A stretch of 64,000 nt of DNA, from positions 42,707,454 through 42,771,453 of the forward strand of contig NC_030389.2 of the NCBI RefSeq assembly GCF_001625215.2, in the 5' to 3' direction. This document shows, one piece after another, positions 18,361-63,651 of the stretch. The DNA is from Daucus carota subsp. sativus. Taxonomy: Eukaryota > Streptophyta > Magnoliopsida > Apiales > Apiaceae. A model generated the notes under the pieces. It had not been told where the DNA came from, made no database searches, and worked only from the letters and a program-made list of their open reading frames with translations. The translations under genes were made by a program, and so were the position numbers. The number at the start of each line of letters is the position of its first letter. Position 1 is the stretch's first letter.

Positions 18361-21072
18361 TCATTGGAGAGCACCGAGAGAGTGGTGACTACTGGATTGG
18401 CCTTCTTTTGAAGGTACATTGTACACATTCTTAAGCAGATCCTGGATCTTGGAATACATAAGCATCTGTGAAGTATCACTCCCACCAGCACTGCTTTGGG
18501 TCTGAGCTGCCTTTGAACTCTCTTGAAGCTTAATCTTCTCAAATAGATACTGCTTCTCAGCTTCCGCCTCGTTCAAACGTTGTTTGAGATACCTGGTTGC
18601 ATAATCCTCCTCTGATTTTTCTGATTTAGCTAGTACAATCCTCTGTATCCTTTCTGATTCTTGTCTAGCCTCACTGGCCTTTAGATCAAACATATCAGCC
18701 TCAGCCTGTTTGAGTCTTACAATACTTTCAAGATCATCAATCTGCTGCTTCTTTCTCTGATGATCCATTTTCAGTGACACCACCTCCCTAGCTTTATCCT
18801 TAAGTTCTTGATCACAAGCCTCAACAGCTAGCCGAGCTTTCTTCACCATCCGCAACTTCTCCTCTTCCACCATCTCCATTTTTTTAACAGCTTCCTGAAC
18901 AACATCAGCAATCCGGTTGAAGGCCTCCTGTGGAGCAATAAGGTTCCCACTTTCCTCACTTTCTGAACTCTTTAAAGGGTCCACCTCAAATTCTGTCAAA
19001 GTAAAAACACAGTCATCAATTCATTTAATGATTAAATGACATGGCCGGTTATATCACTAATAGAATTTTAAAAGAGCCAAGTAGGACAACAATATTAATA
19101 GTTGTTAATCAAAAGCTGAAAGTTGTAAAAAGAAGTTCATATTGCGGTGTTGCTCTCTTTTCTGCTAACAGTTATCCAAGTCGGAATTCATAGTTACATA
19201 GGACTGGGTTCGATTCGAAACGGGGAACGAAATCGGGTACGTGGAACATTAGTTTTAGTGAATCTGGTACGATGGAACGTATAGGTACGATGGAACGTAT
19301 GGGTACGATTGGTCTTTTTAAAAAGAATTCTATAATCATATATATAAATTCCATTATAATATACAATTTTAGTTGATAATTTATACATTTATAATTTTTT
19401 ATAAAGAAAAAGATATTGAATAACAAATAAAAGTACACATTTATTGATAAAATAAATTACTTATCATATGACATAGACATGGATCTATTGTTCAAAACAA
19501 GAATGAAGTCTGTTCTTGCGGGTCGTCACTTCCGGCGATCTGGGTCGCGACCCTGAACGTTTCCGTTCGCGTTTCCGACCGTATCGGGTACGAACGATCT
19601 AGATCGCGGTACGTGGCAGCGTACCCGTTTCCTTGTATCTATGAGTCGGGTCATTACCCAATAAGAAACATTCAATAACTCAAACTAAGCAAATAGCAAA
19701 AAATTATAATTAAAACAGGCATCCGTAATCTCATGTTTTAGATATCTATATAGCATTACTATAGACACTGATATAAACAAACTGATGAAACACCATAGCA
19801 ATACAACCAAGATGAATAGTTTAACAACCTATAATACTGATAAAAACATCAATAAGCAGCATCTATATTGACACTAACTAACATACAAAGAACAGAATAA
19901 ACAAGGCCAGTACTTGAATACTGATACTAATGAAATCAAGTTCCCAATTACAAAAGTTTTAGCATGAGAATCTTACCTTGAAAAAACATCATAACAGCTC
20001 TAGTAACCACAGGTTCTGTTAGCCCTCCTTTCAGTTTATCAATAAGTTCTTCACACTTCCAGAACAATTTTCTACCCTTTGAATCCTCACTCCCACGGAA
20101 AATTCTTCCGACAAAGTCCAGTTCTCTAATCAGTGCTTCCCGATCCCAGCTTTGTGCACAGCTCATAAATACATCTTTCACCCACCCAAATAGCTCAGAT
20201 GTTCTATTGCATGCCCGACACCTAAAAATCATCTCGGGCAAACCTGCCCCACTCTTCACAGAAGGCCCCATGCCAATATGTCCATTGCGGATAGCACAGT
20301 CTGTGTGGGTCCAATGATTACACAAATCACAACCAATCCAACGACATGTATTCACCTCAAAATCAAACTTATTGCATATCAAACACATGCAAAGGTTGCA
20401 GAAACCATTCCTCTTCGAACAAGCATCGCAGGTACAGTCCTCAGCTGGAAGTAGGCTTCCACATGATATATTACGGCACCTTTTGTACAAAAAAACTTCA
20501 ATCAAAGAAGCTTGAGAAAGACTAACACTTGGATGAAGAAATGCCTGAATTGCAGTTCTGATGGCTACTAGAATTTCTAGATGGACCCTATGTGCCATTC
20601 TCAGTGTCTTCTCTGTCAAATCACTCCGACTCAGAATTAACTTTTGCAAAAACAAAAACTCTTCCCTGTGCTGTGAACCACCTGTTCCGTCAAGCAGACT
20701 CCGAACCTCATTCTTCAACTTCTCTAGAAACTCATCAGGAAGACGTTGCATTTTTTCAGCAACACTATCAACTCTTTCTCTGACTATGTCACGAAGAGAC
20801 ATCCTATCCAAGTTAGAAACATTGAGGGTAACCGAATGCTCAGTAAACCCATTCTCCCTTTCCTTCTCCAATTTATGCGCCAGTAAAGCATCAGCATTTG
20901 CATTCGGCCAAGTTTCACGTGAGCTGGCGCTCTCTGTTGGGGACTCACGTACCTGATCAGTATTAGACACACGCTCTTGAAGATTGAAAGACCCCGAAGC
21001 ATCTAACAAAGGTAAAGAAAATGAAGTTGGTAATCCTCCTCCAGAACGCGACTGTTGACGTGGTGGAAGCAT
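18361..21072 (-). CDS. OBE1/OBE2: OBERON1/2-type PHD-finger protein
   Basis: Two coding exons, 21072-19977 and 18992-18361, encode 575 residues, close to Arabidopsis OBE1/OBE2. The joint CAAG|GTAAGA to GACAG|AATTTGAGG restores MMFFQEFEVDPLKS. Order: N-terminal MLPPRQQ; conserved SLRDIVRERVDSVAEKMQRL; FLHPSVSLSQASLIEVFLYK; a Cys/His-rich OBERON PHD finger (CTCDACSKRNGFCNLCMCLI, then CRWIGCDLCNHWTHTDCAIR); GRKLFWKCEELIDKLKGGL; then a long C-terminal coiled coil (residues about 375-540). OBE proteins act in nuclear transcriptional complexes needed for shoot and root meristem formation. MLPP is preferred over an in-frame ATG 17 codons upstream because the family starts there and a 5'UTR acceptor (TTTCTAG|GTCG, 21104) removes the upstream one. 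The 5'UTR donor CTG|GTGAGT at 22350 gives a 1.25-kb leader intron. MITEs occupy both introns. Confidence 0.88.
19189..19643. mobile_element. MITE of about 455 bp in the OBERON coding intron
   Basis: Left end CATAGTTACATAGGACTGGG; right end in reverse complement CATAGATACAAGGAAACGGG. The interior repeats GGTACGATGGAACGTA three times on the left and has GATCTAGATCGCGGTACG on the right, GC-richer than the surroundings. AGTCGG lies next to both ends, possibly the remains of a longer (9-bp) target duplication. Confidence 0.6.
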
Positions 21073-21520
21073 TTTAGGCGAAGACTGACGATTAATCTTC
21101 GACCTAGAAACAAACCAGCTCAATCCTACACCACATAAATTAAAGTCTCCATTTCAGTGGCTCCAAAACTTAAGTTAATTACAATTAGTACAAAACAAAG
21201 AAAAGAAACCAACACCAGTCTCAAAACACATTACAACATGCAGTATGTCATAACAAAAGGTCGTTTTCATTTTATTAGTTCTTTATTGAGTCCGTGAATT
21301 CCCAAAACATATTAAGCTAATAAACCATAATAAACTAGCTCAAATCACTGGTAGCAGGGAAAGCACCAAATTTGTAGCAAACTACCAGAGTTCGTGCCGT
21401 CGTGGTTTCAAATCCTGTCAAGTAGTAGATGCATACGTAGTGATAATTATCAAAAAAACAAAAACAATTTGCACCTACATATATAACAATATAACATCAC
21501 ATGCAACAATATACATATAC

Positions 21521-22178
21521 AGTAGAACCCCAGTAAATTAACACTTTCTAAAGTAATAAACTCTCTAAATTGATAAAAGTTTCAGTCCCACGTTGGGACC
21601 AGTATTAAAATCTAATAGCCTCTCTATCATGATAATTAATATGTTTTTGGAAAATTCTAGTGTTAAATATCGGTCCCAAATTTTGTACAAACTGATATTT
21701 TTGCCTATATACATGTTCTTTCTATACTCTGTAAACATATTTGGGCAGTTTTTTCTTGCTGAATAACTCTGAAACCATGTATTCTCATGTAAATTTACGA
21801 CAAAATTTTATCAGTTTAGGAAATGTTATCAAATTTATATGTGTTATCTTCATCTTGAAAGTGTTTGTAAAGATATTTAGGCAGTTTTTTCTTGTTGAAT
21901 AACTCTGAAACCATGTATTGTCATGTAAACTTACAACACAATTTCATCAATTTAGGAAATGTAATCAAATTTATGTGTGTTATTTTCATCTCGAAAGTGT
22001 TAATACACATAAATGTTAATATATCATTTGCAAATTCAAAAGAACAATGCATATAATGTACTAGTACGTAAAAAATTAATTATAATTATCTTTGCTAAAA
22101 GATCATCCTCTTGTATGTGATAACCTCTCTAAACTTAAAATTTCTCGTCCAACGATATCCCTTTAGAGGGGTTCTACT
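21521..22178. mobile_element. 658-bp element with perfect 11-bp inverted ends, in OBERON 5'UTR intron
   Basis: AGTAGAACCCC at 21521-21531 is perfectly inverted as GGGGTTCTACT at 22168-22178. The interior has CTCTCTAAATTGATAA and CCCACGTTGGGACC near the left, AACCTCTCTAAACTTA near the right, and a roughly 110-bp internal direct repeat (GCAGTTTTTTCTTG-TGAATAACTCTG at about 21747 and 21882). Related blocks lie at 31530-32190. No coding capacity. Confidence 0.7.
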
Positions 22179-33239: not shown

Positions 33240-33760
33240 CGTTATTCAGATATTATAATACTACATATGCTCGCCCCTTCGGCCCTTCTCTCCCTCTCCC
33301 TCTCTGGAGTTATTGTAATCTCTCCCTCCCTCCTCTCTAGTGATCATTTTATCATAGACCAGCTCGGCTTTATGTACATGATCATCTTATGCTCTCCCCC
33401 TCTCCCCCCTCCTTCTCCCTCCTCTCTAGTGATCATTTTATTATTGACCAGCTCGGCTTTACATGATCATCTTATGCTCTCCCTCCCTCTCTCCCCCTCC
33501 CTCTCTCGCTCCTCATCTCCCTCCCTCCCTCGCTCCCTCTCTCGCTCCCCATCTCTCTCTCCCTCTCCCCCTCTCCCTCCCTCTCCCCCCCCCCCCCCCC
33601 CTCTCTCCCCCTCCCTCCCTCCTCTCTAGTGATCATTTTATTATAGACCAGCTCGGCTTTATGGACATGATCATCTTATGCTCTCCCCCTCTCCCTCTCC
33701 CTCCCTCTCTCTCTCTCTCTTTCTCTCCCCCCCCCCCCCCCCAATTCCTCCCTCCCTCCA
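33240..33760. repeat. CT-rich minisatellite in the leader region of the ATPase-like gene
   Basis: A unit containing CTCTAGTGATCATTTTAT, then AGACCAGCTCGGCTTTA, then CATGATCATCTTATGCTCTC occurs three times (starts near 33337, 33425 and 33624), separated by C/T tracts and two poly-C runs of 14-17 bases. Long Ser/Leu/Pro open frames here are repeat artefacts. Confidence 0.85.
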
Positions 33761-33879: not shown

Positions 33880-36800
33880 ATGTCAGAGGCAAACCTGAAT
33901 GTCGACTATGAAGCTCAGAGTTTACTAGTTTTTACTGGCGATGCCTCACCGCGTCGCGCATTGTCCCGGATGATTGTGCTCTTGCACTCAATTTCAAAAT
34001 TCAGATCTGAAGCTGAGAGAAGTTACACCAGTATCGATGACACTAATGTAGAAGATGATGAAGTAAGTCCTATAGAAAATAGTGCAACTTCTCATTCCTT
34101 TATATAAAACATTTCCTTTTAATGAAGTCTTTTTATTCAATTCGATCATCCTTGTAGTCCTTCATTACATATTTTAACAGAAATTATAATGTCTAAGCTG
34201 CAGGATGTTTAATACAATGATCAATCTTTGTCTATTTATACGTTAACTTATTTGAGCAAAAAGCATTCATTCATGACTATTGATTCAAGAATTCTTGTAT
34301 AATGTTTGATGTAAAATAATCTCGAATATAAATTTTTTTACCAGGGACAGCCAGAACTCACTGTTCTTGTTGATGGTTCATCTGCACAAGACAATAGCCT
34401 CGGTAGCAATAAGGACCGGCTTGATTCAGAAGTTACCTCACAAACCTCGCGGGGTGATAGTCATCATGGCATTGAGCTCCTGACTCAATTTAAAATTAGT
34501 GAGATTTCTGTCACCACACATATCGCATCCGGGAATGCCTCAACTGTTCCTTCAGTGCTGCCAAAGAGCCAACAGGACAAACTACAACGTAGCCAAACAA
34601 AGAAAATAACTCAAATCATGAAGGAAAGGGATTTAAAGACATTCAATAGTTTTGGAGGCATCGACGGAGTTGCAGATGCATTGAGTACTGACCTGGTCAA
34701 GGGACTTCATGACAAGGATGATATTTGTCGTAGAAAAATGGAAATAGACTCTCAAAAGCAGTTCCCTGAAAGCTGTTTCTTTCCCTTACTGATAGATACA
34801 TGCAAAAGTTCTACAACGATTCTTCTTCTTGTGGTTGCAGTACTGTCTCTTGCCTTTGGATTACAGGAAGAAGGTCCAGAGACCGGCTGGCATGATGGAG
34901 CCATTTTATTTCTCATGATTACTGTGCTGGTTCTGTTAACTTCGTTATGCAGATATAATCATGAAAAAAAATTGCTTAGGAGGTTGAGGAAGCAAGGTGC
35001 TCCAATGAAGACTGTTCATGTAACTAGGGGAGAATGTAATCAGCCCATCAGTATCTCAGATCTTGTACGTGGTGATATAGTTTTGCTTGAGAGAGGATAT
35101 GAAGTTCCGTGTGATGGTTTCTATATAGATGGTAAATCACTAGAAGTGGATGCTGGATCACAGTCCATAATTGATGACAAGAATCCGTTTCTGTTTTATG
35201 GTTCAAGGGTAATCAATGGCAGTGGCAGGATGGTTGTGGCATCTGTGGGCACGACCACAGTTTGGGATAACCTGATGAAGACTAATTCGAGAGATAAAAA
35301 GTCTATTGTAGAAGCTCATCTTGACAAGTTAATGAAAGGAATCCATATCTTTGGTCTCCTAATAACTATCCTCATGTTTACAGCATCCTTCCTGCGGTTT
35401 GTATTAAAGAAACCAGATGAAGCAAATGGGTACCGGTCAGAAGTCAAGGATAAACCAACCTCGATCAGAATTATATGTAATACCATTGAGAAAATAGTCA
35501 CAGAACCAAAGGGCACAGCTAGAACCTTAAGAAGTCTATTAGGTATCTCACTGGTTGGAATAATGGAAAATGTGCCAATGGTTGTTTCAATTGCTATCAC
35601 TCTATGGAATGACAAGGTTCTGTCAGATAAAGCTACCTGCCATGATTTGCTAGCGTGCATTAAGTCATCATCAGTCACTCGTATCTGCACTGACAAAATT
35701 GGTGGGTTAACCGAACAGCAGATGGAAGTTAGTATGGTTTCTGTTGGATGTGATGTTATAAGTGACAGCTCTAGTCTTTCCCCGAAAGTACTTGAAGCAC
35801 TTTGCGAAGGTATTGGCACATCAGTTTTCACATCTGCAGATGCTTGTCATGTAATGGAGGCATCACTCTGTCTTTGGGCTAATGATGCCATTGGGCTTAT
35901 GAGTAACAATTTGAAAACAAACTGGGAACTTCTGCAGTGGACAGAATCAGATGCGAGTAAGAACTCTTGTGGAGTATTGATTAAGAAAACTGAAGAAGAT
36001 GTTATGCGTCTGCATTGGAAGGGACCTGTCGGGGAAATTTTGGCCAAATGTTCCCTTTGCTATGATAAGGAAGGGAATCTACATGAAATGAACACTCAGA
36101 AAAGGCTGGATTTTGAGCGTGTTAATAAAGATATGCTGGACAAACAATTGAAAACAGTTGCACTTGCTTGTAGACCCGCTTTTGCCCGTAGGCTGGAAGG
36201 AAATGACTTAAATTTAATAGGACTGATTGGTTTAAAAGATTCAAGTAAAGAAACTACCAATATGGCAATTGCACTTGCTTTTAGCGAAGGTAGTATAAGG
36301 ACTATACTTGTTTCAGCAGATGATGTTTCTTCACTCGAACCAATTGCAGTTCAACATGGGTTGCTCAAACAGGCATCAAACCTGGTGCTTAAAGGTGAAG
36401 ATTTTCAAAAATTAACCAAGGCTGAGAGGATGGAGAAAATAGATCAAATTTGCGTTCTGGGAAATTGTCTTCCAGCTGATAAGCAGTCTTTTGTGAAATG
36501 CTTAAAGGACAGAGGAGAGGTGGTTGCGATGGTTGGAATGCAAACAACTGATGCTCCAGCACTAAGAGAATGTGACATAGGGGTGGCTTTGGGGACCTGG
36601 AACTCAGCAATAGCTAGAGAAAGTTCTGACATAACTATCTGGAATGAGGGTCTATGTTTCTTATTTGACGTGATCATTTGTGGAAGATGGGTTTATGGGA
36701 AGTTGCAGAAGTTTATTCAAGTGCTGCTTATTATGACAGTTTCCAGCTTACTGCTAAACTTCGTTGGAGTAGTTTCCACGGGAGATGCCCCAATGACAGC

Positions 36801-37515
36801 AGTTCAAGTTTTTGGACTAAATTTGCTCATGACATTTATAGATGGCATGGCACTGTTGGGATCACCACAAGCCAGGAGACAGTGTTATGAGTCCACAGAT
36901 GGACCTACAGGCTCTCTTATAACCATGGCTATGATAAGAAACGTAATTGCTCAATCATCATACCAGATTACAATTCTAATGACTCTGCAGCAAAAAGGGC
37001 ATCTAATTGAAGGCACCACTAAGAAATCAATCCAATCCATGATCTTCAATAGCCTAATCATGTGCCAGGCTTTCAACCTGTTCAATGCTAGAGAGCTACA
37101 GAACAAAAACTTTTTCAAAGGTATTATCCATGACTTCTGGTTTTTGTGTGCTATGGCTATTTACAGTTTTCTGCACATATTATATTTTGCCATTGGATAT
37201 AGACTAGCCAAAGACGCACGTCTTGATTATAGATTATGGGAAGGATGTTTTCTCATCGGTATTGTTTCATGGCTGTTTGATTGGATTTGGAAAGTCCTAC
37301 TTCCTTCTAGTAGGATAGAGTGTTTTACTGGCTGGCTTATCAATTGCACTGGAAAATGCAAAATGACCGTACTAAAGAAAGGTTGGTGGTTAGTGAAGGG
37401 AGGGTGTTTACACTCTGAATCTTTACCACCAGAAACCAATTCTAATCTTCATGACCCCCTCATCAACACCTTAGACTCTTTAAGCACCCCGAATCCATAT
37501 GAAACATTAGTGTAA
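33880..37515 (+). CDS. ACA12/13-like P2B Ca2+-ATPase homologue with degraded catalytic motifs (probable pseudoenzyme)
   Basis: Two exons, 33880-34062 and 34345-37515, join in phase 0 (GAA|GTAAGT to CCAG|GGACAG), giving 1117 residues; ordinary ACA12 is about 1030. Residues 25-42 (RRALSRMIVLLHSISKFR) resemble the autoinhibitory calmodulin-binding segment. Residues 62-135 are a Ser/Thr-rich extension. Membrane helices lie near 218-234, 247-262, 393-411, 459-482, 851-871 and 878-900, with four more to follow. Fold-specific phrases survive (GGIDGVADALSTDLVKGLH, NPFLFYGSRVINGSG, CQAFNLFNAR). Motifs needed for transport do not: TGES is AGSQ (331-334), PEGLP in helix 4 is MENVP (468-472), DKTGT is DKIGG (511-515, Asp kept), KGA is KGP, TGD is SAD (718-720), GDGTNDAP is GMQTTDAP (792-799), and the helix-6 Asp of NLIMD is Thr (891). 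Ca2+ transport therefore looks impossible, yet the frame is long and unbroken. It could be a regulatory decoy or a very recent pseudogene; the first fits better. Confidence 0.85.
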
Positions 37516-38146
37516 CAAACATATGTATTTGTGAGTGTTAGTGTTAGAGAGATCATAGCAGCATAGGACTACAGGGCATTGGTAGCTTTATTTGTTTTGC
37601 CCTTTTTAAGCAACATGTATATATGTAGTTATTTCACAATTTGTTTACCATGTTCCATTTGGACTTCAGTGACCTGTACAGAATCTTATATTTCAAGATA
37701 ATATTCCATTTTACCTTTACACTTTTACTCGGGCAGAATAAGTTACATTAAACGGATAGCTACAAAATTTATTTTTAAATAAAAATTTAGCAAAAGTTAA
37801 TCTTATTTTTAATATCTATTCTAGACACCTTAAAACATATGCTTAAAGGTCTTAGTAGACTATATCATTTAAAATGGAGAGAGCATTAAGTTTTATATTT
37901 GAACACTGCAGCAGCTCATTTTTTAGAGTTACTTATATTGATAACAAAAACTTAACTTTGTTAATATGAAGTTTAGTTGAGAAATATTTTATTTATTTAG
38001 TAGTGTGGCTTTACTGGTTTACTTAAAATTAAAAAATTTAGACTCTCTTTCACTTCAAAGCAATGTCTTCCTTTCTGGGGGTTGTGGTTAGCCTATCTTT
38101 TAGGATAATGCTCAGATTTCAGTGTCCTATATAATTTCAAGACTTT

Positions 38147-38487
38147 GAGCCTGTTTGTGTGGCTTTAAAGCAGGTTTTAAGTTATTTTCGTCTAAACTGA
38201 AAAATGTTTGTTTGATAAATCAGAAGCCGGCTTAAAATTAAACTTAAAGCCATAATTTAGTTTGAGATACTTTTTCCGGTGACTTAATTTTTTAAAACTT
38301 TTTTGACAAAAGTTACCAATAAGCCATAAATTATTCATAAATCACCTTTATTTTTTATTATATTTTTAATAACCCTTAAGTCATTAATAAGTCAAAATTA
38401 CCCAAACAAACATTTTAAACTCGTAACTTATCACATTAAGTAGCGTTAAGTCATAAGTTACAGTTTTGACCTCAATCAAACGGGCTC
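38147..38487. mobile_element. MITE, AAACTGAAAAAT / GTGACTTAA family, copy 3 (best ends)
   Basis: Left GAGCCTGTTTGTGTGG, right TCAATCAAACGGGCTC, with TTT outside both ends. The interior has AAACTGAAAAATGTTTGTTTG, GTTTGAGATACTTTTTCCGG and GGTGACTTAATTTTT. The 3-bp flank suggests a Tourist/Harbinger type. Confidence 0.7.
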
Positions 38488-41400
38488 TTTAACCAAGTAC
38501 TATGCTGCTATGATCTCAAGTACTAATAAAGCCGCAAATATAGCTTACATACGAATTTAGTAGTGACAACAGTTCAAATCAGCCAAGATTAAGGAACTTA
38601 ACTAGTTCAGCCACTTGTTGCATACCCAAAGATAAGCATGTTAGGTTCATTCATCTTGTTCATTAGCCAAAGTCTATCAATAATCATACTCATGTCTACC
38701 TAAATTAGAGATTATGCTTGTAATAGATCATGCAAACAAGACTAAAGCACTAGAGCATGCTAATCCTAACATCTCTGTTATATAAGCTAGTTTATAGTTT
38801 GCTAATCACAAAATAATGACAGAAGAAGAAAAACAAAATGACACAAGTTTTATGATTAGCATTATAATTATAACAAAAAATTAAGAATAAGGAGGGTAAG
38901 AATAAGGTTGAGTGCCATAATTGCATTTCAGATATTGATTAAGAGAAAATTATGGACATGCTGTACATTAATTTGTAGCACTTGCCTGACTAGAAATAGA
39001 AAGCTTCACATTTTTGAGCAGCCATTGATGAGTTGAGAAATGAGAAGAGAATGCATTATTCTTTGAAGAGAATGAGAGATGAGACAATTTGTTTACTCGA
39101 ATTCTGTTGACTTAGTCCGAGTCAAAGTCTCTCTTTTTTGGCATCTTCTTATACGGTTATTAAATTTTACAAAGGCTGCATTTTAATTATTGGCTGTTTA
39201 GAATTGAGATGCATTTTCTGTCTTCTGAATTATATACTGGGATGGGAACATGACAAATATTTTAATATTTTTGAAAAATATATATTTTATAAAAATATTA
39301 AAATACTTGTGGAGAATCGAAAAAATGTATATAATAAACTGAACAAAAGAATAGCCAATTTCATAAATACGGGTGAATGATACTTGGAAATTTTGATCAG
39401 TTTTTATAATCTTTCCTCAATCTCGTGGAATAGTATAGATTTTAGATAGGTAAGGCTATTAAGAAAAAGTGTAATTTAGTGAAGAAATATAAGAAATGTG
39501 AGTGAAATAATATGATCAACTAATATTTAATATATAAAATGAGTGTATTAAATTTAAATAATGAATGTAGTTAAAATTTCATATTTATATAATTTTTTTA
39601 TTTTAAAATTGTGGTTATAATTAAGCGGGATGTCTAAGATAATGAAGGGGAGGAGTATTTCACGTGTTTGAAAACAGCGCGTGCATGTTACGCACGAATT
39701 CTTATATTGTTTTGTACGCATATGATTTAGAAACGTGGAGCCACTGCCACAAGGCACAAGTGATGGTATTGAATTTTTTTTTTTTCATTTGAAATTTCTT
39801 ATTTATTTTGCTTTGAATTAAAACCATTTTATTTTGATTCTGATTTTATTTCAGTTCAAGTAATATTTATCAAAAATGTTTTTATCTCGTTCTTTTAGTT
39901 ATATCTATGTCTTCCTAGTTTTATTATGATTTTTCATATTTTATTTCGGTTTTGTAAATGATAATAGTTTTACACGAACATTGTATGTTTAAATTATTTT
40001 TTTTTGGAAGAAAAAAATGGGCCAAAATGATATAATGTTCACCGTTTGATTTGTACGCAAAGTGATTGATTATAACCATCTTTGTCCTTTTAATTTTGCT
40101 AGAGGGATTGGTACGAGCTTAATCGATATTTGACAAATCATCATGAAATTTTGAAAGCGAGACATGAAAGTTGAAAAACATACGGGGGATCACAGATTCA
40201 CAATGACACCAAACAATTTTGAAGTTTCTATCACTTTTTCTCCCGGTGGAGATATACCTTTCTCCTAGGCTAGTGATAAAAGAATCTAAGATTTTACTAC
40301 TGATGTTACATTAAACGAGTTATTTTTTTATCACGATGAAAATCCGAATTTAGAGCCCACTTAATGGTTGGAGCATGATTAATTGGACTTTTCCCATATT
40401 TTGAGGTAATTTCGTTAACAATGTGATTTTTAGAGTTCAATCAAGATGAGCATTATATTTGTATTACGATTCATTGGATTAGTTGAATACTTCTTGCAAA
40501 AACAAATTATAACTTCTGATGTTATGGACGACTCACACTCATATTATAACATGAAACAAAGAATATTAGACACATCAAATGAATTTAATTTATCACGTAA
40601 TGTATTTTTAAGAACTTTAGATAATGTCTCTTAAAACTAACAAATATTGACTATATATGACTGATATTTTCTCTATTTTAGATGATCAATTTCTGCACAT
40701 TAGATTTTAAAATAATTTTTTGTGAAGTTAAAAAGTTTTAAGTCGGATGTAGTCAAGTCACATATATGCTATATGTTAACAAGTTTACAAGAGTCTAGTG
40801 CAAATTCAAGATACCTTATAAGGTGGAGTCATCGACCAGTGTTATGGTCTACAACAAAGTTCTTTTTATTATTTATAGCGTAAAGTCTTCTACCCCAAAC
40901 TCTCAAAATTAAAGTCAGGAAAGTTGTTTATAAACTGTCATGAATTCTTCTACGACAAACTCATAATAAGCTTATAGGGAAGTAGTGAAGTGGGATTGTC
41001 GACAAGAAAATATAATCTATCATAAAGTGATTTATTAACAAGTCATAGATATAATTGTCAAGCCAAGATTACAATAAAATGGAGTTACGATGTGAACACT
41101 TAGAATTATTTTAAATATACTCAATTAGAAATATGGGGATAACACAAATAACATTAGTATAATTACACAATTATAATTATTAATAATTGGACAGGTGTTA
41201 AGCCTACATAATAACTTGGAGCACACATTGATAAGAATAACTAGGATGTAGTAGGGACAAGACAAAGCAATAGAAAGATGTTGTAATCTGTGGTAGTGAT
41301 TTTCATAGCTAGAAAATGACAAATTTTTGCTGTATAATCTATTAGGTTTTTATCAACATATTCTTATTTCATTACTTTTATAATAATTATAAATATATAT

Positions 41401-55378: not shown

Positions 55379-58173
55379 TGTAACGCCCCAGATCCGCATC
55401 CCACAGATCTGGCTCGTTACTAAGCATCTGGATCAAACAACACTTGCATTACTTAATAATATCTTACAACAAAAACTCTCGCCCCACAAGTCCAGGGCCG
55501 ATCGTCTTATAACATCATTTCCAAGTCTAACTTGATTACATATTGGGAAGTCTGATTACAGACTATAATAACTATTGATAATACTACCAAGCGGCGTAAT
55601 CTAGCGGCCTCAGTTTGGGTGATGCGCCTTCTCCTTTCCCTTGCCAGTACCCGTTTCCGGGCGGTTCTCCTTAGTCGTGCCATACTCGCTTTTTACTGCT
55701 TAAAATAATATAAAGTAGATGCAAGAATGAGCAATCACATTGCTCAGCAAGTTCACTTAGCACATAACAACAAAGCGCAGAATAATCGAGTAAAACATCG
55801 AAGGCATTTTAAAACAAAGTAAGGAAGCAGATAATGCCAATTAACAGAATAATTTCAAAAATAAGAAAAGGCTGGTCTTCCACCTTTCGGTAACACTACA
55901 TGGTCCGATCATAACCATTTCGTGCTTCCCGTCCCCCTGTGTAATCTTTGCAGTCTGATCGTCACTGCACAAGATACACCTCACACTCTCATTTTTGCTA
56001 GCATAAGGGTTAACATTTGTAACCCTAGACTATCCACACACAGCAGACAGTCAATAATTTATCATCTCTTCCACGAATTTAATAAATTCGTGTTGACCAG
56101 CTTAAACAGAATCCTCCGAGTGCACATTACTTCGTCTAAGGAATGCGAACAATGCATCCTTTATTTATTAGTCAAGAAGTTTCAAGCTTTCACAATGTCG
56201 GAGAGGTATTGAATATTATTAGGAGCGGTTACTTCCGAACAAAAGAAGAACCCGAAATGAATAAGATTTTTCCGGTTTATCACTAATATTTGATATCAAC
56301 TCGGTCAAGTCAATAACAAACACATTTAAAATATTAAATACACAAGAATGTGTCATATTGGAGAAAAGAAGATAGCGAACTTGCCTGGCGTCCTTAGCTT
56401 ATAATTAGTGGCTCCACTTTTCCAAGTATTAAATAAGTATTCTATACAACACACAAAATAGTGGTTTAGAAATTTATCCAAAAGAAATTAATTATTTAAT
56501 ACTACGAATATTTTCACTAATTTTCCTTGTAATCTTCTGACTAACGCTATACTTCAACTCATTATCTTTATATTAGGGGAATTTATGCTTCATTAAAAAT
56601 TTAGTAAAGATTAATCTTCCATTAATTAATTAGTGATTACTCACTTGTCTATTTAATAACGCCACTCGTCCTATTGTCACTAATTTGACAAATAATACGT
56701 CTCAAGTTACCAACTTGTCTTTAGGTATCAACTTATTTTAAATGTATTACTCGGAATATTAATTAATTACTTTAGTATAAACCTTCCAATGCCACCCCAA
56801 GGACTATTGACTAACTCATTAAAATTCTTAACTTATAATCCCACAAATTAATCTTACTCTATAGCCTAGTTATTATATAAATTACTTCCTACTTTTAATT
56901 TATTTACAAATGGCCTTTTTATTAATATGTCCGCTTACTACCAAATTTTTAACACTTGCCTTCCGTTCCCGACTTAATAATTTTATTCAACGCCATTATT
57001 TAATAAGTCTCTACAAAAATTAATAATTTATATTTATTTAATTTAAATAACTCAGCTGGTGAAAAGTCCTTATTGCCCCTAATATAATTTCCCACAAAAT
57101 TCCCTTATTCCTCCATATCTCCCCAGCCTCTCTTTCTCTCTCAATCTCTCTCTCTCCCCCTCTCCCTTTCTCTCTTTCGCTCTTCTCTCCCTCGCTCGTT
57201 CTCTCCTTCTCTCTCCCTCTCTCTCACCCTCTCTCTCTCTCTCGCCCTCTCTCTCTCTCTCTCTCCCTCTCTCTCTCTGTTTCGCGTCGTCCCGAACCAA
57301 CACCGCCGCTGGAGGCGGCGTTCCGGCCGACACCGGCTGCTTCACAGCCTCTCGCCGTAACTCGACTCCCCCCCCTTTCCTCCGATCCTTTCTCCCCTCC
57401 CCCATCTGTCCATCTCCCTCTCAACTGCTCGCCCCTCCTCCGTACACTTCCAATCGCCGCTGTTGAGCTCCGTCGGCGTTGCCGACGCGAGCTCCGGCCT
57501 CCCCTCCGGCAGCACCTGCTTCCAATCCTCCGCCTCAACTGCTCCGCCAAACTTTAATCAATTCAAACTCAATTCCCCCAATACTCAATTATTCACCAAT
57601 CAATTAAATACCCAATTTTAATCAAAAACCCTAACCCTAATTGTTAGATATTTGGGTGAAATTCATGATGTTATGGGTTGATTTATATGTACTGGTTTTA
57701 TTGTTTATCAATTATCAAAGTAAAAGCAGTAAATAAAATGGTCCACAGCAGTTCAACATTCAATAAATAGTCATTTAAATTAAACTCAATCAATTCCATA
57801 TTTAAGGAAAAGATGAGGTATGGGTTTAATACCTTACTGGAACAACTATTAATCAGCAAGCTTGAACTTAGCTCCTCTGTTTTCTCCCTGGATGGAAGTA
57901 TCCAAAAAAATTCTACTGATTTCCTTTGCCATTTATAGGCACCCTTAATTACCATTAAGCCTTAATCACTTTATTAATTAACATCAATTCTTGTGCACTA
58001 CTTGGTGGCCACTCAATTGCCTTGGCCACCACTCAAAAATATTATAGTGCCACATTTTAAATTCCTGGGTTCAAATTCCAAGGCTCATTTAGCCGAAACC
58101 AATTTCTGCTCGACTCGACCTATTCTCGTATCGTTTCGTTTATTTTCGAATAATTTCCGAAACTGAAATAAAT
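55379..58173 (-). mobile_element. Chromovirus-type LTR, interrupted at its right side (LTR-1)
   Basis: Starts TGTAACGCCCCAGATCCG and aligns over much of its length with LTR-2 at 58174: CCCCACAAGTCCAGGGYCGA, CACGAATTTAATAAATTCGT, GCGAACAATGCA and GAACTTGCCTG-CGTCCTTAG all occur in the same order. The expected terminus (GGTTGTTACA) is missing where LTR-2 begins, so LTR-2 seems to have inserted into or replaced its end. A CT tract (57121-57290) and a GC-rich block (57290-57540) with CCGCCGCTGGAGGCGGCG lie inside; they resemble a promoter or leader and give spurious Arg/Glu-rich open frames. Confidence 0.65.
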
Positions 58174-61005
58174 TGTGACGCCCCCAGATCCGCATTCCGC
58201 AGATTTGGTCCATCACTATACATCTGGCCCAAAACAAAACTTCCATTACATATTTAAGATTACACAATCCAACTCTTGCCCCACAAGTCCAGGGTCGATC
58301 GTCTTACAACATTACTATCAGGTCTATCTTGATTACATATTTGCAAGTCCGATTACAGACCATGATAATAACTATAGTTGTACTACCAAACAATGTAGTC
58401 TAGCAGCCTCAGCTTGTGTGATGCGCCTTTTCCTTGCCTATGCCAAAACCCGTTTCCGGGCAAATCTCTTGGGTTGTGCCAATCTCACTGCTCAAAAGAA
58501 TATAAAGTAGATACAAGAATGAGCAATCAAATTGCTCAGCAAGTCAACATATCACAGAATAACAAATAACAAGATATGCAAATAAGCCATCGAAAGCATA
58601 TCAAATCAAAGCAACAAAACAGTTATCATCAAACGACAAAACAATGTCAAGTAAAGGAACTGCTGGTCTTCCACCTCTCGGTAACACTACATGGCTCGAT
58701 CAGCACCATTTCGTGAATACCGTTCTCCTGTGTAGTCCTAGTGGTCTGATCGTAACCACTGAAGACACACCAACACTCTCTTTGCTAGCATCAGGGTTTA
58801 ACACTGGAACCCCACTATCTGCCTTACCAGATAGTAAATTTCAACTCTACCACGAATTTAATAAATTCGTGTTGACCAGCTTGAACCGATTCCTCCGAAT
58901 ACAAGGAAATTTTCCCAAACAAACACTTCTCAATCATCACTGCTAATTTTTATCAAAGAAGTGCGAACAATGCACCCTTTCGTCATTACAAAGATTACCC
59001 GAAGGTAGAAGTGAAAGATAATTAAAATAATTAGATTCCAAAAGATAAGATGATCTCCAGAAAGAGTAAATTGAGATCATCGCTGCCAACGTATTCACAT
59101 CAAGCTTCGAAGATTCAAAATATTATCGTTATAGGATCAACTCATTCCCGAACAATGGGAGAGCTCGAATTATATAAAATAATATGTGAGCAATATCTTT
59201 AAAGCCTTCAAAATGAAGCAGAGATATTTTCTCGATTCACAATGATACGAAATGTAATATTTTCACAATCAACACTTTTCACAAAATATGAAATAGGCAC
59301 GAAAAACTTCACATCAAGACAGGGATAGTGAACTTGCCTGTCGTCCTTAGCTTGATAATATTCTTGTAATTATCACGTATAATCGGTTTCATCCTTCCGA
59401 ATATTCAATTTCTAATTCACGTAAAATAATACTTTAATATCTCATCAAAGAAAACAAAAATGCCAAAATAATCTATATTATAAATCCGACAAATAAGATT
59501 AAGAATTTGATAGGATATCTATCTCATTTTCTTTTACACTTTAAACTAACATATTGTATGTGTACATGTAGTAGATTAAACATCCATACTACACTTATTT
59601 AAGTCCAGAGCCTAACTTTCTTTTATCAACTACTAAATAAATCGTTTATATAGTCCATATTTGATTATTTATTAATGCTATCTCTATTTAATTTTTAAAC
59701 AATTATTCCACTTATATTTCGTTCCCCACATTCCATTTCTACTAATCCAAGAAATTTGTGGTTCATCATCACTTATTCATATTTACTAAATAAACATCTA
59801 TCTGTCTATTTAACATCAAAATCCTACACTCTCTAATTAATTCTACGTATTCCTTTACCAACACTTATTCACCAACCCATTTAATAAATCGATAAATTAA
59901 ATATAAAAATCATCTCCGCATCCCCAATTTATTACCTCACAATTATTTTTAATAAATTCATTTTATATTCTTAACTCAAAATTATTATTATTATCATTAT
60001 TCTCTCTCACAAAATTTTAATATATACCACCCCTCTCCCTTCTTCCTTTCCATTGCCTCACACCTCCTCCTTTAACAACCTATTCTGCTTAATCAATCAG
60101 CACAACCAAAACAGTTAAGTTATTTAACCAAACTCAAAATTCTTAAATAGAAAACATAAAACTCGTGTATTATTTTCATGGCTCCATCTATTTAAATAGC
60201 TTTTATTGAATAAAAGATGGGCTATAAATATTCAATATTACCATTAATCAAAGATAGAAAGAGAATATACCTTGATGATGGATTCTGATTCTTCTTTACT
60301 GTCTTGAGTTTTACTTGCTTTGGTACCTCCTGAATTTGCCAAACTAAAACTAAACAACGTGTTTGGTATTTATACTAATCATAAATCATGGTTAAGATTT
60401 AATTTACCTTGGTTAACAATTACTTGGGCACTACTCTTTGGTTTTTAAGTACCTGGTTTTGATAAACCAATGTGCCACAAACCACCCCATTAGTCGGTTA
60501 GCTAGTTTTGTTAAAATATTATTTATTTATTTATTTATATATTCTTTTTATTTGCCCGTATATTAAATGTTTCGCAACTGGAAATATTTTAGCCCCGGGT
60601 CATTTAACAACTTCCTATTTAAATATTTTAATAAAAAATATCATTCGGGATTATACTAAATAATTAATTAAATAATTATTCTAGTATTTCTCTAAATATT
60701 TCAAAATTTAATAGTTATAACGAAATATTTCTTTTAGCTAAACCCGTAAAATTTATAATATTCCCGGGCCATAACAAAATTATACATCTACCAATTTATT
60801 TACGTGGCCAACATTTAGATCCTAATGGTACGAAAATGGATTTAATTTGCTAGCCGATATAAACAAACCTCGTACTAGCCTGAAATGTTTTACGTACCAA
60901 TATTTTTATTAAATAATAATTTCACAATTATTTAAATGATAGCTTTAACCGCATAAAATTAAATAATTAATTTGTTTACGTACTTGAAATTTTACGGTTG
61001 TTACA
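58174..61005 (-). mobile_element. LTR-2, 2832 bp, 3' LTR of the minus-strand Ty3/gypsy element
   Basis: On the minus strand it begins TGTAACAACCGTAAAATT and ends GGATCTGGGGGCGTCACA, so it is bounded by TG and CA. Directly before it on that strand stands the polypurine tract AAACGAGGGAAGAA (61019-61006), which primes plus-strand synthesis in LTR elements, and before that the pol gene. This orientation makes it the 3' LTR. Confidence 0.8.
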
Positions 61006-63651
61006 TTCTTCCCTCGTTTAAAGGATTCCGACCTCGGAATCAGATTTGATGCTGAAACAACTCGGGATACTTCTCTTTCATTACTTCTTCCAGTTCCCAC
61101 GTGGCTTCTTCTACAGTTTGATTTCCCCAAATTACTTTAAACATTTTCACTTTCTTATTTCTTAATTCCTGAAACTTAGACTCCACAATTTCCAAAGGCT
61201 TTTTTTTTTCATATGTTAAATCAGACTGAAGGTTAATCGGCTCCTAATTTAGAACATGCTGAATATCAGTCTTGTAAGCTTTCAAAAGAGATACATGAAA
61301 TACATCATGAATATGTTGTAGATCTGGAGGTAAAGCTAATTGATAAGACACGACTCCAACTTTTCTTAGAATCTCGAAGGTTTCGATTTATCTTGGATTC
61401 AATTTTCTTTTCTTTCCAAACCTGATTATTCCTTTCCAAGATGATACTTTCAAAAGTATTTTTCCCCAACTTCAAATGTCATTTCTTTTCTTCCTAAGTC
61501 TGCATATTTCTTTTGCCTGTCTTGAGCTTCAACTAACCTTTTGTGTATCTTCTCGATCAATTGTGTAGTTTGCTGAACAAGTTCCGGTCTTAATAACTTT
61601 TTCTCTCCCACTTCCTCCCAAACAAGAGACGATCTACATTTTCTACCATATAATGTTCCATAAGGCGCCATTCCAATACTAGCATGGTAGCTGTTATTGT
61701 ATGCAAACTCCACCAAAGGCAAGTGATCATCCCAACTTCCTTTAAAATCTAATGAACAAGCTCTTAACATATCCTCTATAGTTTGTATTGTTCTTTTACT
61801 TTGCCCAGCTGTTTGTGGGTGATATGCAGTTCTCAAATTAAGCTTAGTCCCAAAACACTCTTGAAAAGCTTGCCAGAATCTTGAAGAAAATCTTGCATCT
61901 CTGTTTGAAACAATTGACACTGACACTCCATGTCTGGTCACGACCTCATTCATATATAGCTTTACTAATCTCTTCATGGTGTACTTTTCACTAATAGGAA
62001 GAAAATATGCTAATTTCGTCAACCTATCTACAATTACCCAAATAGCATCATGATTAGCTCGAGTCTTTGGCAATCTAACTATAAAGTCCATGGTGATGTG
62101 TTCCCATTTCCATTCTGGAATCTCTAATGGCCGCAATAATCCGTTAGGTCTTTGGTGCTCTGCTTTCACTTTTTGACAAGTCAGACATTTACTCACCCAC
62201 TCAGCTATTTCTCTTTTCATGTTAGGGGACTAATAGTTTCTCTTAAATTATTGGTACGTCTTAGTACTTTCCTGGTGTATTGAATATCTCGATTCATGAG
62301 CTTTACTAAAAAATATCTCTTTTAAGATCAAACAGGTTAGGAATCCAAATTCTTTTAGCAAATCTCATAATTCCTTTCTCATATTTCACTTAAATTCTCA
62401 TCGTTAGTAAATTCAAAATGTCTTTCTTTAATTATCAACTCTTGAATTTGTTTTATTATTTTCAAGTATCTCTGGCTGCACTTATATCTCAAAAATCCTT
62501 CCATCCTTATGCTCTGAATCCTTAATCTTCAATCCTAGATTTTCCATATTCTTAATCAATTTCTTTAATCAAGACATCACATTAATTCTCTCCTTTCTAC
62601 TTGACGCGTCATCAACTACCTTAGCCTTCCCTGGGTGATAGTTAATTGTACAATCATAGTCTTTTATCAATTATAACCATCTACTTTGTCTCATATTCAA
62701 TTCTTTCAGAGCAAACCGTATTTTTAAGTTCTTACGATCCGTAAATATCTCACACTTCTCACCATACAAGGAATGTCGCCAAATCTTTAAAGAAAACATT
62801 ATAGCAGCTAACTCTAGGTCATGTGGGGTATCTCAGCTCGTGAGCCTTAAGTTCCCTAGAAGCATATGCTATCATCTCTCCATGTATGTATAAGAACACA
62901 TCTAAGTCCTTGATGAGATGCATCGCTATAAACCCACAAAATATCATGTCTCATTATGTAAGGTTAATACAAGGGCCATTGTAAGCCGCTTCTTTAATTC
63001 TTGAAAACTTTCCTCGTACTCAGGTATCCACTCAAAATTCTCTTCGTTTCTAGTCAACTTAGTCAAAGAAGTCTCAATCTTAAAGAAATCTTTTAAAAAA
63101 ATATTTTATAATATCCTGCTAAATCAAGAAAACTTCTCACTTTGGTTGGGGTTCTTAGTCTTTTCCAATTTGATAATTCCTCAATCTTCGCGGGTATACC
63201 AATATTCCTTTCTTAAAAACTATATGCCCTTAAAAACTATACTTGCTTTATCAAAATTCTCATTTTGAAAATTTTGCAGGTAACTTTTCTTTCCTCAAAA
63301 TTTTCTAAGTTACTCTAAGATGCTCAACATGTTTTTCTTTCGTCTGAGAATATATTATATATCATCAATAAAACAATAACGAACTTATCCAAATATTTCT
63401 TCAATACTCTATTCATAAGATCCATAGTTGTTATAGGTGCATTAGTCAATCCGAAAGGCATCTCTTAAGAACTCACAATGTTCATGTCGGGGCCTAAAGA
63501 CCGTCTTAGGTACATTCTCAGACCCGATTCTGTAACTGATGATATCCAGATCTCGTGTCTATCTTAAAAAAATAAGATGCTTTCCTCAACAACTAAAACA
63601 ATCATCAACCCTAGGCAAGGGTCATCTTGTTAAATCCCAATAATCGATGTA
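61006..63651 (-). pseudogene. Ty3/gypsy chromovirus pol remnant: RT, RNase H, integrase, chromodomain
   Basis: Read on the minus strand from 63651: reverse transcriptase with [12 protein letters not shown] near 63470 followed by YLDKFVIV; RNase H with LKIWRHSLYGEKCEIFTD and YHPGKAKVVDDA (about 62830-62600); then an intact 256-codon integrase core at 62220-61450. The last part is a C-terminal chromodomain-like segment (KMFKVIWGNQTVEEATWELE, stop at 61040), which marks a chromovirus, probably of the Tekay/Del group. The integrase has a CxxC finger half and the first catalytic Asp (TMDF), but the second is Asn (VSNRD) and the third is Lys instead of Glu (GQSKRT, 36 residues on). Frameshifts and stops lie between 61450 and 61200 and throughout RT/RNase H. 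Gag, protease and the 5' LTR are absent; a second LTR cuts in at about 63652. The element is dead. Confidence 0.85.

Follow-up and report, generated by a model that had tools for sequence, protein, structure and literature searches.

Mammalian PMCA2, an active pump, has a C-terminal calmodulin site, and in P-type ATPases generally the TGES motif serves dephosphorylation, the first hinge Asp of GDGTNDAP binds Mg2+ and an Asp in membrane helix M6 is a Ca2+ ligand. Among kinases and proteases, pseudoenzymes are a familiar phenomenon. In Arabidopsis, the calmodulin region of ACA8 is placed at the N-terminus (PMC8835232), and the ACA12 and ACA13 genes are described as intron-less (PMC5920303). No conserved family of dead P-type ATPases was found in the literature searched, a statement that does not extend to papers beyond it; no plant family of inactive members was described in the listed titles and abstract openings, and a search of a P-type ATPase review (PMC10654040) for pseudo or inactive members gave no relevant passage. 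Here, we analyzed a 64,000-nucleotide stretch of the carrot genome (Daucus carota subsp. sativus, NC_030389.2, positions 42,707,454 to 42,771,453; hereafter the window), which carries a gene for a P2B Ca2+-ATPase homologue, referred to below as the carrot gene, whose product is probably a conserved non-pumping protein of the Apiaceae, a pseudo-pump.

The original prediction had proposed an unbroken two-exon frame of 1,117 residues, and re-examination of coordinates, splice sites and length proved this right, the sole stop codon being the terminal one. The whole P2B fold that it described was also supported, as the Pfam domains E1-E2_ATPase and Cation_ATPase_C exceeded their cut-offs (the HAD hydrolase domain, at 21.5 bits, lay below its 26.4-bit cut-off) and Arabidopsis ACA8 (PDB 8qmp) scored highest by sequence among PDB entries (418 bits) and was also the Foldseek match with the best E-value for the structure model. 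A tree of 35 proteins placed the carrot protein and its orthologues in one clade (100/100); rooted on ACA1/2/4/11-like rows, the tree joins that clade to 25 ACA12/13-like rows (node 100/100) and leaves ACA8 outside. Judged by sequence, the carrot gene is by descent a P2B Ca2+-ATPase of the ACA type from the ACA12/13 side, with a long branch that joins beside or inside ACA12/13. A DNA search of the 441 Mb carrot genome for a second copy, in which very common words are skipped, matched only the gene itself. In a separate search of the genome, the best matches after the gene itself were eight copies at 31–35% identity, each in one unbroken stretch like ACA12/13-like genes, and three of the eight contained a stop inside the matched stretch.

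Searches with the single protein and with an alignment (7992 and 7993 candidates, selected via words from the first 500 residues, so that other orthologues may be missed) returned the same five proteins, namely those of carrot, Heracleum and Apium together with P0003 and P0006; numerous distant P-type ATPases from bacteria were listed as well. The carrot protein is 75–77% identical to three of these orthologues and 59% identical to P0006. Motifs were referred to 51 canonical ACA12/13-like proteins, from 120 listed; four distant bacterial P-type ATPases (P0007, P0008, P0012 and P0014) included in the alignment used for the first structure model (A2) were excluded from motif and column counts. 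The intact DKTGT, TGES and GDGTNDAP motifs expected of an active P2B Ca2+-ATPase were absent from all five rows, and the same motif losses recurred in the other genera. At the TGES slot, Gly, Glu and Ser were missing throughout from a loop about seven residues shorter, with Thr in that slot in one row; the AGSQ originally named as the replacement is slightly out of register, being located upstream of that slot in the alignment. PEGLP was replaced by MENVP in carrot, MDNMP in three rows and MERIP in P0006, with the first Pro lost in every row, and both Thr of DKTGT were likewise lost (DKIGG, but DNIGG in Heracleum). The TGD slot reads SAD, or SSD in P0003, and GDGTNDAP has become GMQTTDAP in carrot, GMQTNDAP in P0003 and Heracleum, GMQINDAP in Apium and GWQTNDAP in P0006, so that the first Asp is Met in four rows and Trp in one. 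The M6 Ca2+-ligand Asp, present in 51 of 51 canonical proteins, is Thr in all five orthologues, the N-domain Phe is replaced by Ser (four rows) or Arg (one), and in DPxR the Pro is always Ser, with Lys in place of the Arg in four rows and a gap there in the fifth. Recurrence of the losses in other genera ruled out an assembly error, and a private pseudogene is disfavoured by losses common to all five orthologues and by a frame whose only stop is terminal. Because celery and hogweed show the same breaks in the pumping machinery, the carrot gene looks more like one retained for a new function than like a dead gene.

The earlier statement that nearly all catalytic motifs had been lost holds for the motifs and fails for individual residues, as the HAD core is largely kept. 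All five rows retain the phospho-Asp (Asp511), Gly514, Asp720, the HAD Lys (Lys774) and the second hinge Asp (Asp797), as well as Lys620-Gly621 and Asn887 of M6; the position of the M4 Glu is acidic (Glu or Asp) in all of them, and N-domain Glu566 is retained in three. The Thr of TGD is Ser718 in every row, and HAD motif II permits Ser or Thr. Judged by these residues, the HAD core of the carrot protein has not been erased. Such a core (Asp511, Ser718, Lys774, Asp797) might still take phosphate or move another substrate without transporting Ca2+, which would suit the universal retention of these residues, of Lys620-Gly621, of Asn887 and of an acid at the M4 position, and the P domain and M5–M6 are among the better-preserved parts. 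However, the first hinge Asp, the DKT Thr, TGES, the N-domain Phe and the DPxR Pro and Arg, all required by known P-type pumps, are lost in every readable row, and we consider altered chemistry of this kind quite unlikely. ATP-driven Ca2+ transport by the carrot protein would be very unlikely because the motif and residue losses are common to five orthologues.

Constraint on the remaining protein was assessed against neutral simulations in which carrot codons were mutated to the observed difference of each pair. These predicted means of 17.4, 14.8, 15.9 and 29.6 stops for Heracleum, P0003, Apium and P0006, respectively, and none was seen. Replacements were milder than neutral in all four pairs (mean BLOSUM62 −0.13 to −0.16 versus −0.48 to −0.61). 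Across 805 gap-free columns, with simulated identity to carrot exceeding the observed value in two rows and falling short of it by no more than 0.01 in the other two, membrane helices contained 82 charged residues against 104.8 expected (standard deviation 6.6; 0 of 1000 simulations as low) and 18 prolines against 28.4 (4 of 1000), and 399 columns were invariant against 370 expected (25 of 1000). A second simulation setting gave 0, 6 and 3 of 1000 for charge, proline and invariant columns; in 200 earlier simulations at slightly greater divergence the charge minimum was 80, so at least one was as low as 82. Allowing rates to vary among sites improved the log-likelihood by 28.5, compared with at most 14.3 in 15 neutral runs. 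When 943 columns were compared (masking the diverging X2 tail of Apium), 423 showed uniformity of 98% or more among the 51 canonical proteins. Of these, 137 were unchanged across the orthologue rows, 104 had switched to a single new residue in every row and 182 were variable; the common new residues partly reflect the long stem and are not in themselves a test. Synonymous divergence (dS) from the paralogues was saturated (at least 2.4, and undefined for the canonical copy L005), and paralogue ratios of nonsynonymous to synonymous divergence (dN/dS) were therefore not used for the carrot gene.

The tempo of change was uneven. The stem leading to the orthologues measured 2.14 changes per site, and the crown 0.39–0.61, with a depth of 0.17–0.27 for the four closer rows; under a mixture model the stem branch was 2.58 plus 0.95, such long-branch lengths being uncertain. 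Published split times are about 35.1 million years ago for carrot and celery (PMC6944684) and 24–28 or 29.6 million years ago for carrot and coriander (PMC7206992). At the crown rate, the stem would have lasted about 190–450 million years. Because this exceeds the age usually given to flowering plants, the stem was probably faster than the crown, and the losses probably arose fast with change slowing afterwards, the reverse of steady decay. The carrot–celery protein difference corresponds to a neutral divergence of 0.142 per site against an expected Ks of 0.31–0.46 at the rate of the celery paper, from which we infer a rough ratio of about 0.31–0.46 that is not a measured dN/dS.

Several observations pull the other way. 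Neutral simulations predict 15–30 stops per pair, but their absence is partly a matter of ascertainment because searches of predicted proteins favour intact frames. Rates among sites were flatter in the orthologues (gamma shape 1.10) than in five canonical proteins (0.21), and replacements between canonical carrot copies or relatives were far milder (mean BLOSUM62 0.27 to 0.54); even those between L006 and L008, two motif-broken carrot paralogues, were milder (−0.02). Canonical L005 is 93% and 85% identical to its nearest relatives, in a comparison that is not matched to the 75–77% and 59% of the carrot gene. The sample is narrow, with three named genera plus P0003 and P0006, the first anchor Trp of the N-terminal helix described below is Leu in carrot, and the full-length Heracleum model was poor (predicted local distance difference test score 58.7, predicted template modelling score 0.38), leaving that helix unplaceable. 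Constraint is real, yet much relaxed next to true pumps. A slowly decaying pseudogene whose frame has survived by chance in the sampled species would explain why the protein evolves fast, with flat site rates and replacements close to neutral, and damaged copies do exist in the same carrot subfamily (a stop interrupts L007 and L014, and the phospho-Asp is Gly in L008). It fits poorly with identical losses in five of five orthologues, the lack of stops, membrane helices shielded from charge, site constraint above neutral and a crown that changed more slowly than the stem, and we judge decay unlikely. Moderate purifying selection on the carrot gene since the loss, favoured by indirect tests, is the best reading, and the pseudoenzyme originally proposed, with scaffold kept and no working active site, gains from these signs as from losses common to two other named genera.

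A history consistent with these data would start from a paralogue on the ACA12/13 side of the P2B Ca2+-ATPases that lost ATP-driven transport along the long stem branch, where TGES, the first hinge Asp, the N-domain Phe and the M6 Ca2+ ligand would have disappeared, and that then settled and was maintained under moderate purifying selection. The product would be a non-cycling body in a cell membrane whose N-terminal amphipathic helix could bind Ca2+-calmodulin, acting by binding (as a scaffold, a calmodulin-responsive partner or a competitor for regulators of true ACA pumps) without moving Ca2+. The helix has 1-5-8-14 spacing that lines up in register with that of canonical pumps. Because this calmodulin-binding-like segment is kept, we infer from sequence features, and tentatively, that a Ca2+/calmodulin-responsive scaffold or a pump regulator may be the likeliest role; the roles originally suggested, a regulator of true ACA pumps or a calmodulin sink, stay conjectural. 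The preserved, charge-shielded membrane helices and the ion-site motifs of M4 and M6, which have changed alike across the orthologues, could also be imagined in a stalled pump body that leaks or channels Ca2+ or lipid, but no positive sign of a pore was present among the results and such a function seems highly improbable. A possible connection with the thapsigargin chemistry of the Apiaceae was considered and dropped, as there was no evidence for it.

The coordinates of the carrot gene and its motifs are given in the table below. A RefSeq protein (P0002), named "calcium-transporting ATPase 12, plasma membrane-type-like isoform X2", matches the carrot product at 100% over the common part; it is itself a carrot model and provides no independent witness for the sequence. 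Isoform X2 terminates after M8, and the Apium X2 model departs from the body at the same place. The carrot gene is probably expressed, transcripts being hinted at by the RefSeq isoform names only.

Table. Features of the carrot pseudo-pump candidate (positions in the window)
Feature	Position	Strand	Detail or basis
Exon 1	33880..34062	+	61 codons, N-terminal regulatory region; P0002 RefSeq model crosses the same junction
Calmodulin-binding-like amphipathic stretch, 1-5-8-14 spacing	33961..34002	+	sequence motif only; LSRMIVLLHSISKF in carrot, WTRIIVLLHSISKF in Heracleum and Apium
Intron	34063..34344	+	282 bases, GTAAGT...ACCAG
Exon 2	34345..37515	+	1056 codons plus stop, P2B pump body
TGES slot	35164..35175	+	SIID in shortened loop
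M4 PEGLP to MENVP	35563..35577	+	alignment
DKTGT to DKIGG, phospho-Asp retained	35692..35706	+	alignment
TGD to SAD	36313..36321	+	alignment
GDGTNDAP to GMQTTDAP, first Mg2+ Asp lost	36535..36558	+	alignment
M6 NLIMD to NLLMT, Ca2+ Asp lost	36820..36834	+	alignment
Alternative 3' intron, RefSeq isoform X2	37121..40102	+	GT..AG; from P0002 and P0005 tails, located and re-translated
Last coding stretch, isoform X2	40103..40122	+	..EGLVRA, stop

Directly upstream of exon 1, a 106-base repeat unit is present in three copies (33322-33716, 64–90% alike) within long C/T-rich tracts. Elsewhere in the window, a block several hundred bases long occurs twice in direct orientation, about 2.8 kb apart (55474-56124 and 58271-58903, 75–89% alike), an integrase-like fragment at 61450-62229 scored just under the Pfam Integrase_H2C2 cut-off, and a 136-base unit is duplicated in tandem (21730-22001, 90% alike), with a minus-strand Oberon-like PHD gene (18361-21153) about 600 bases away. 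An Rfam scan of the window gave no matches at the gathering score. Three ACA1/2/4/11-like copies (G000:C6:34563164-34566238, 34584219-34587293 and 34978805-34981880) have equal later-exon matches (38.5 bits); the first two are in opposite orientation about 18 kb apart, with a shorter first exon match than the third (L011 versus L009), and the set may reflect recent duplication or an assembly matter.

Among the ACA12/13-like carrot paralogues, L007 (G000:C2:29454524-29457244) and L014 (G000:C8:26389500-26394500, about 47 kb from the adjacent pair L002/L003) are each broken by one TAA. Like the carrot gene, L006 and L008 have long open frames (987 and 994 residues) with broken catalytic motifs. 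The open L006 (G000:C7:13165841-13168624) carries TAD for TGD, PEGLA for PEGLP and GDGADDAP for GDGTNDAP, a second, separate route of motif loss within the subfamily; L008 (G000:C7:13666303-13669167) has GKTGT, with Gly for the phospho-Asp, IGES for TGES and SHDTNDAP for GDGTNDAP, and one TGA was scored within its matched stretch by the genome search. Unlike the carrot gene, the two are recent and 71% identical to each other (dN/dS 0.234 at dS 0.743), and most of their losses are common neither to each other nor to the carrot gene. A carrot-family class of pseudo-pumps is conceivable but doubtful: a single burst would have turned P2B bodies into membrane scaffolds or pump regulators that respond to calmodulin and keep the HAD core as a switch or a site for phosphate, and L006 and L008 would represent a second, independent wave of motif-broken pumps in the same subfamily.

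If the carrot gene does encode a pseudo-pump, it would provide a natural experiment on the roles of a Ca2+ pump body other than transport, and carrot, celery and their relatives would possess a family-specific layer of Ca2+ signalling. Compared with known systems, it is closest to plant ACA12/ACA13 (P2B cluster 3), with which it shares the side of the tree (100/100), a one-exon pump body, the N-terminal 1-5-8-14 pattern in register and the P2B fold. It differs from them in its lost catalytic and Ca2+ motifs, its N-terminal linker and C-terminal tail, and, unlike the intron-less cluster 3 genes, in the single intron that precedes the body. Arabidopsis ACA8 retains the motifs, and the tree puts the carrot gene outside its branch, while mammalian PMCA2 (9gse, 9gsf) is 24–25% identical to the carrot protein.
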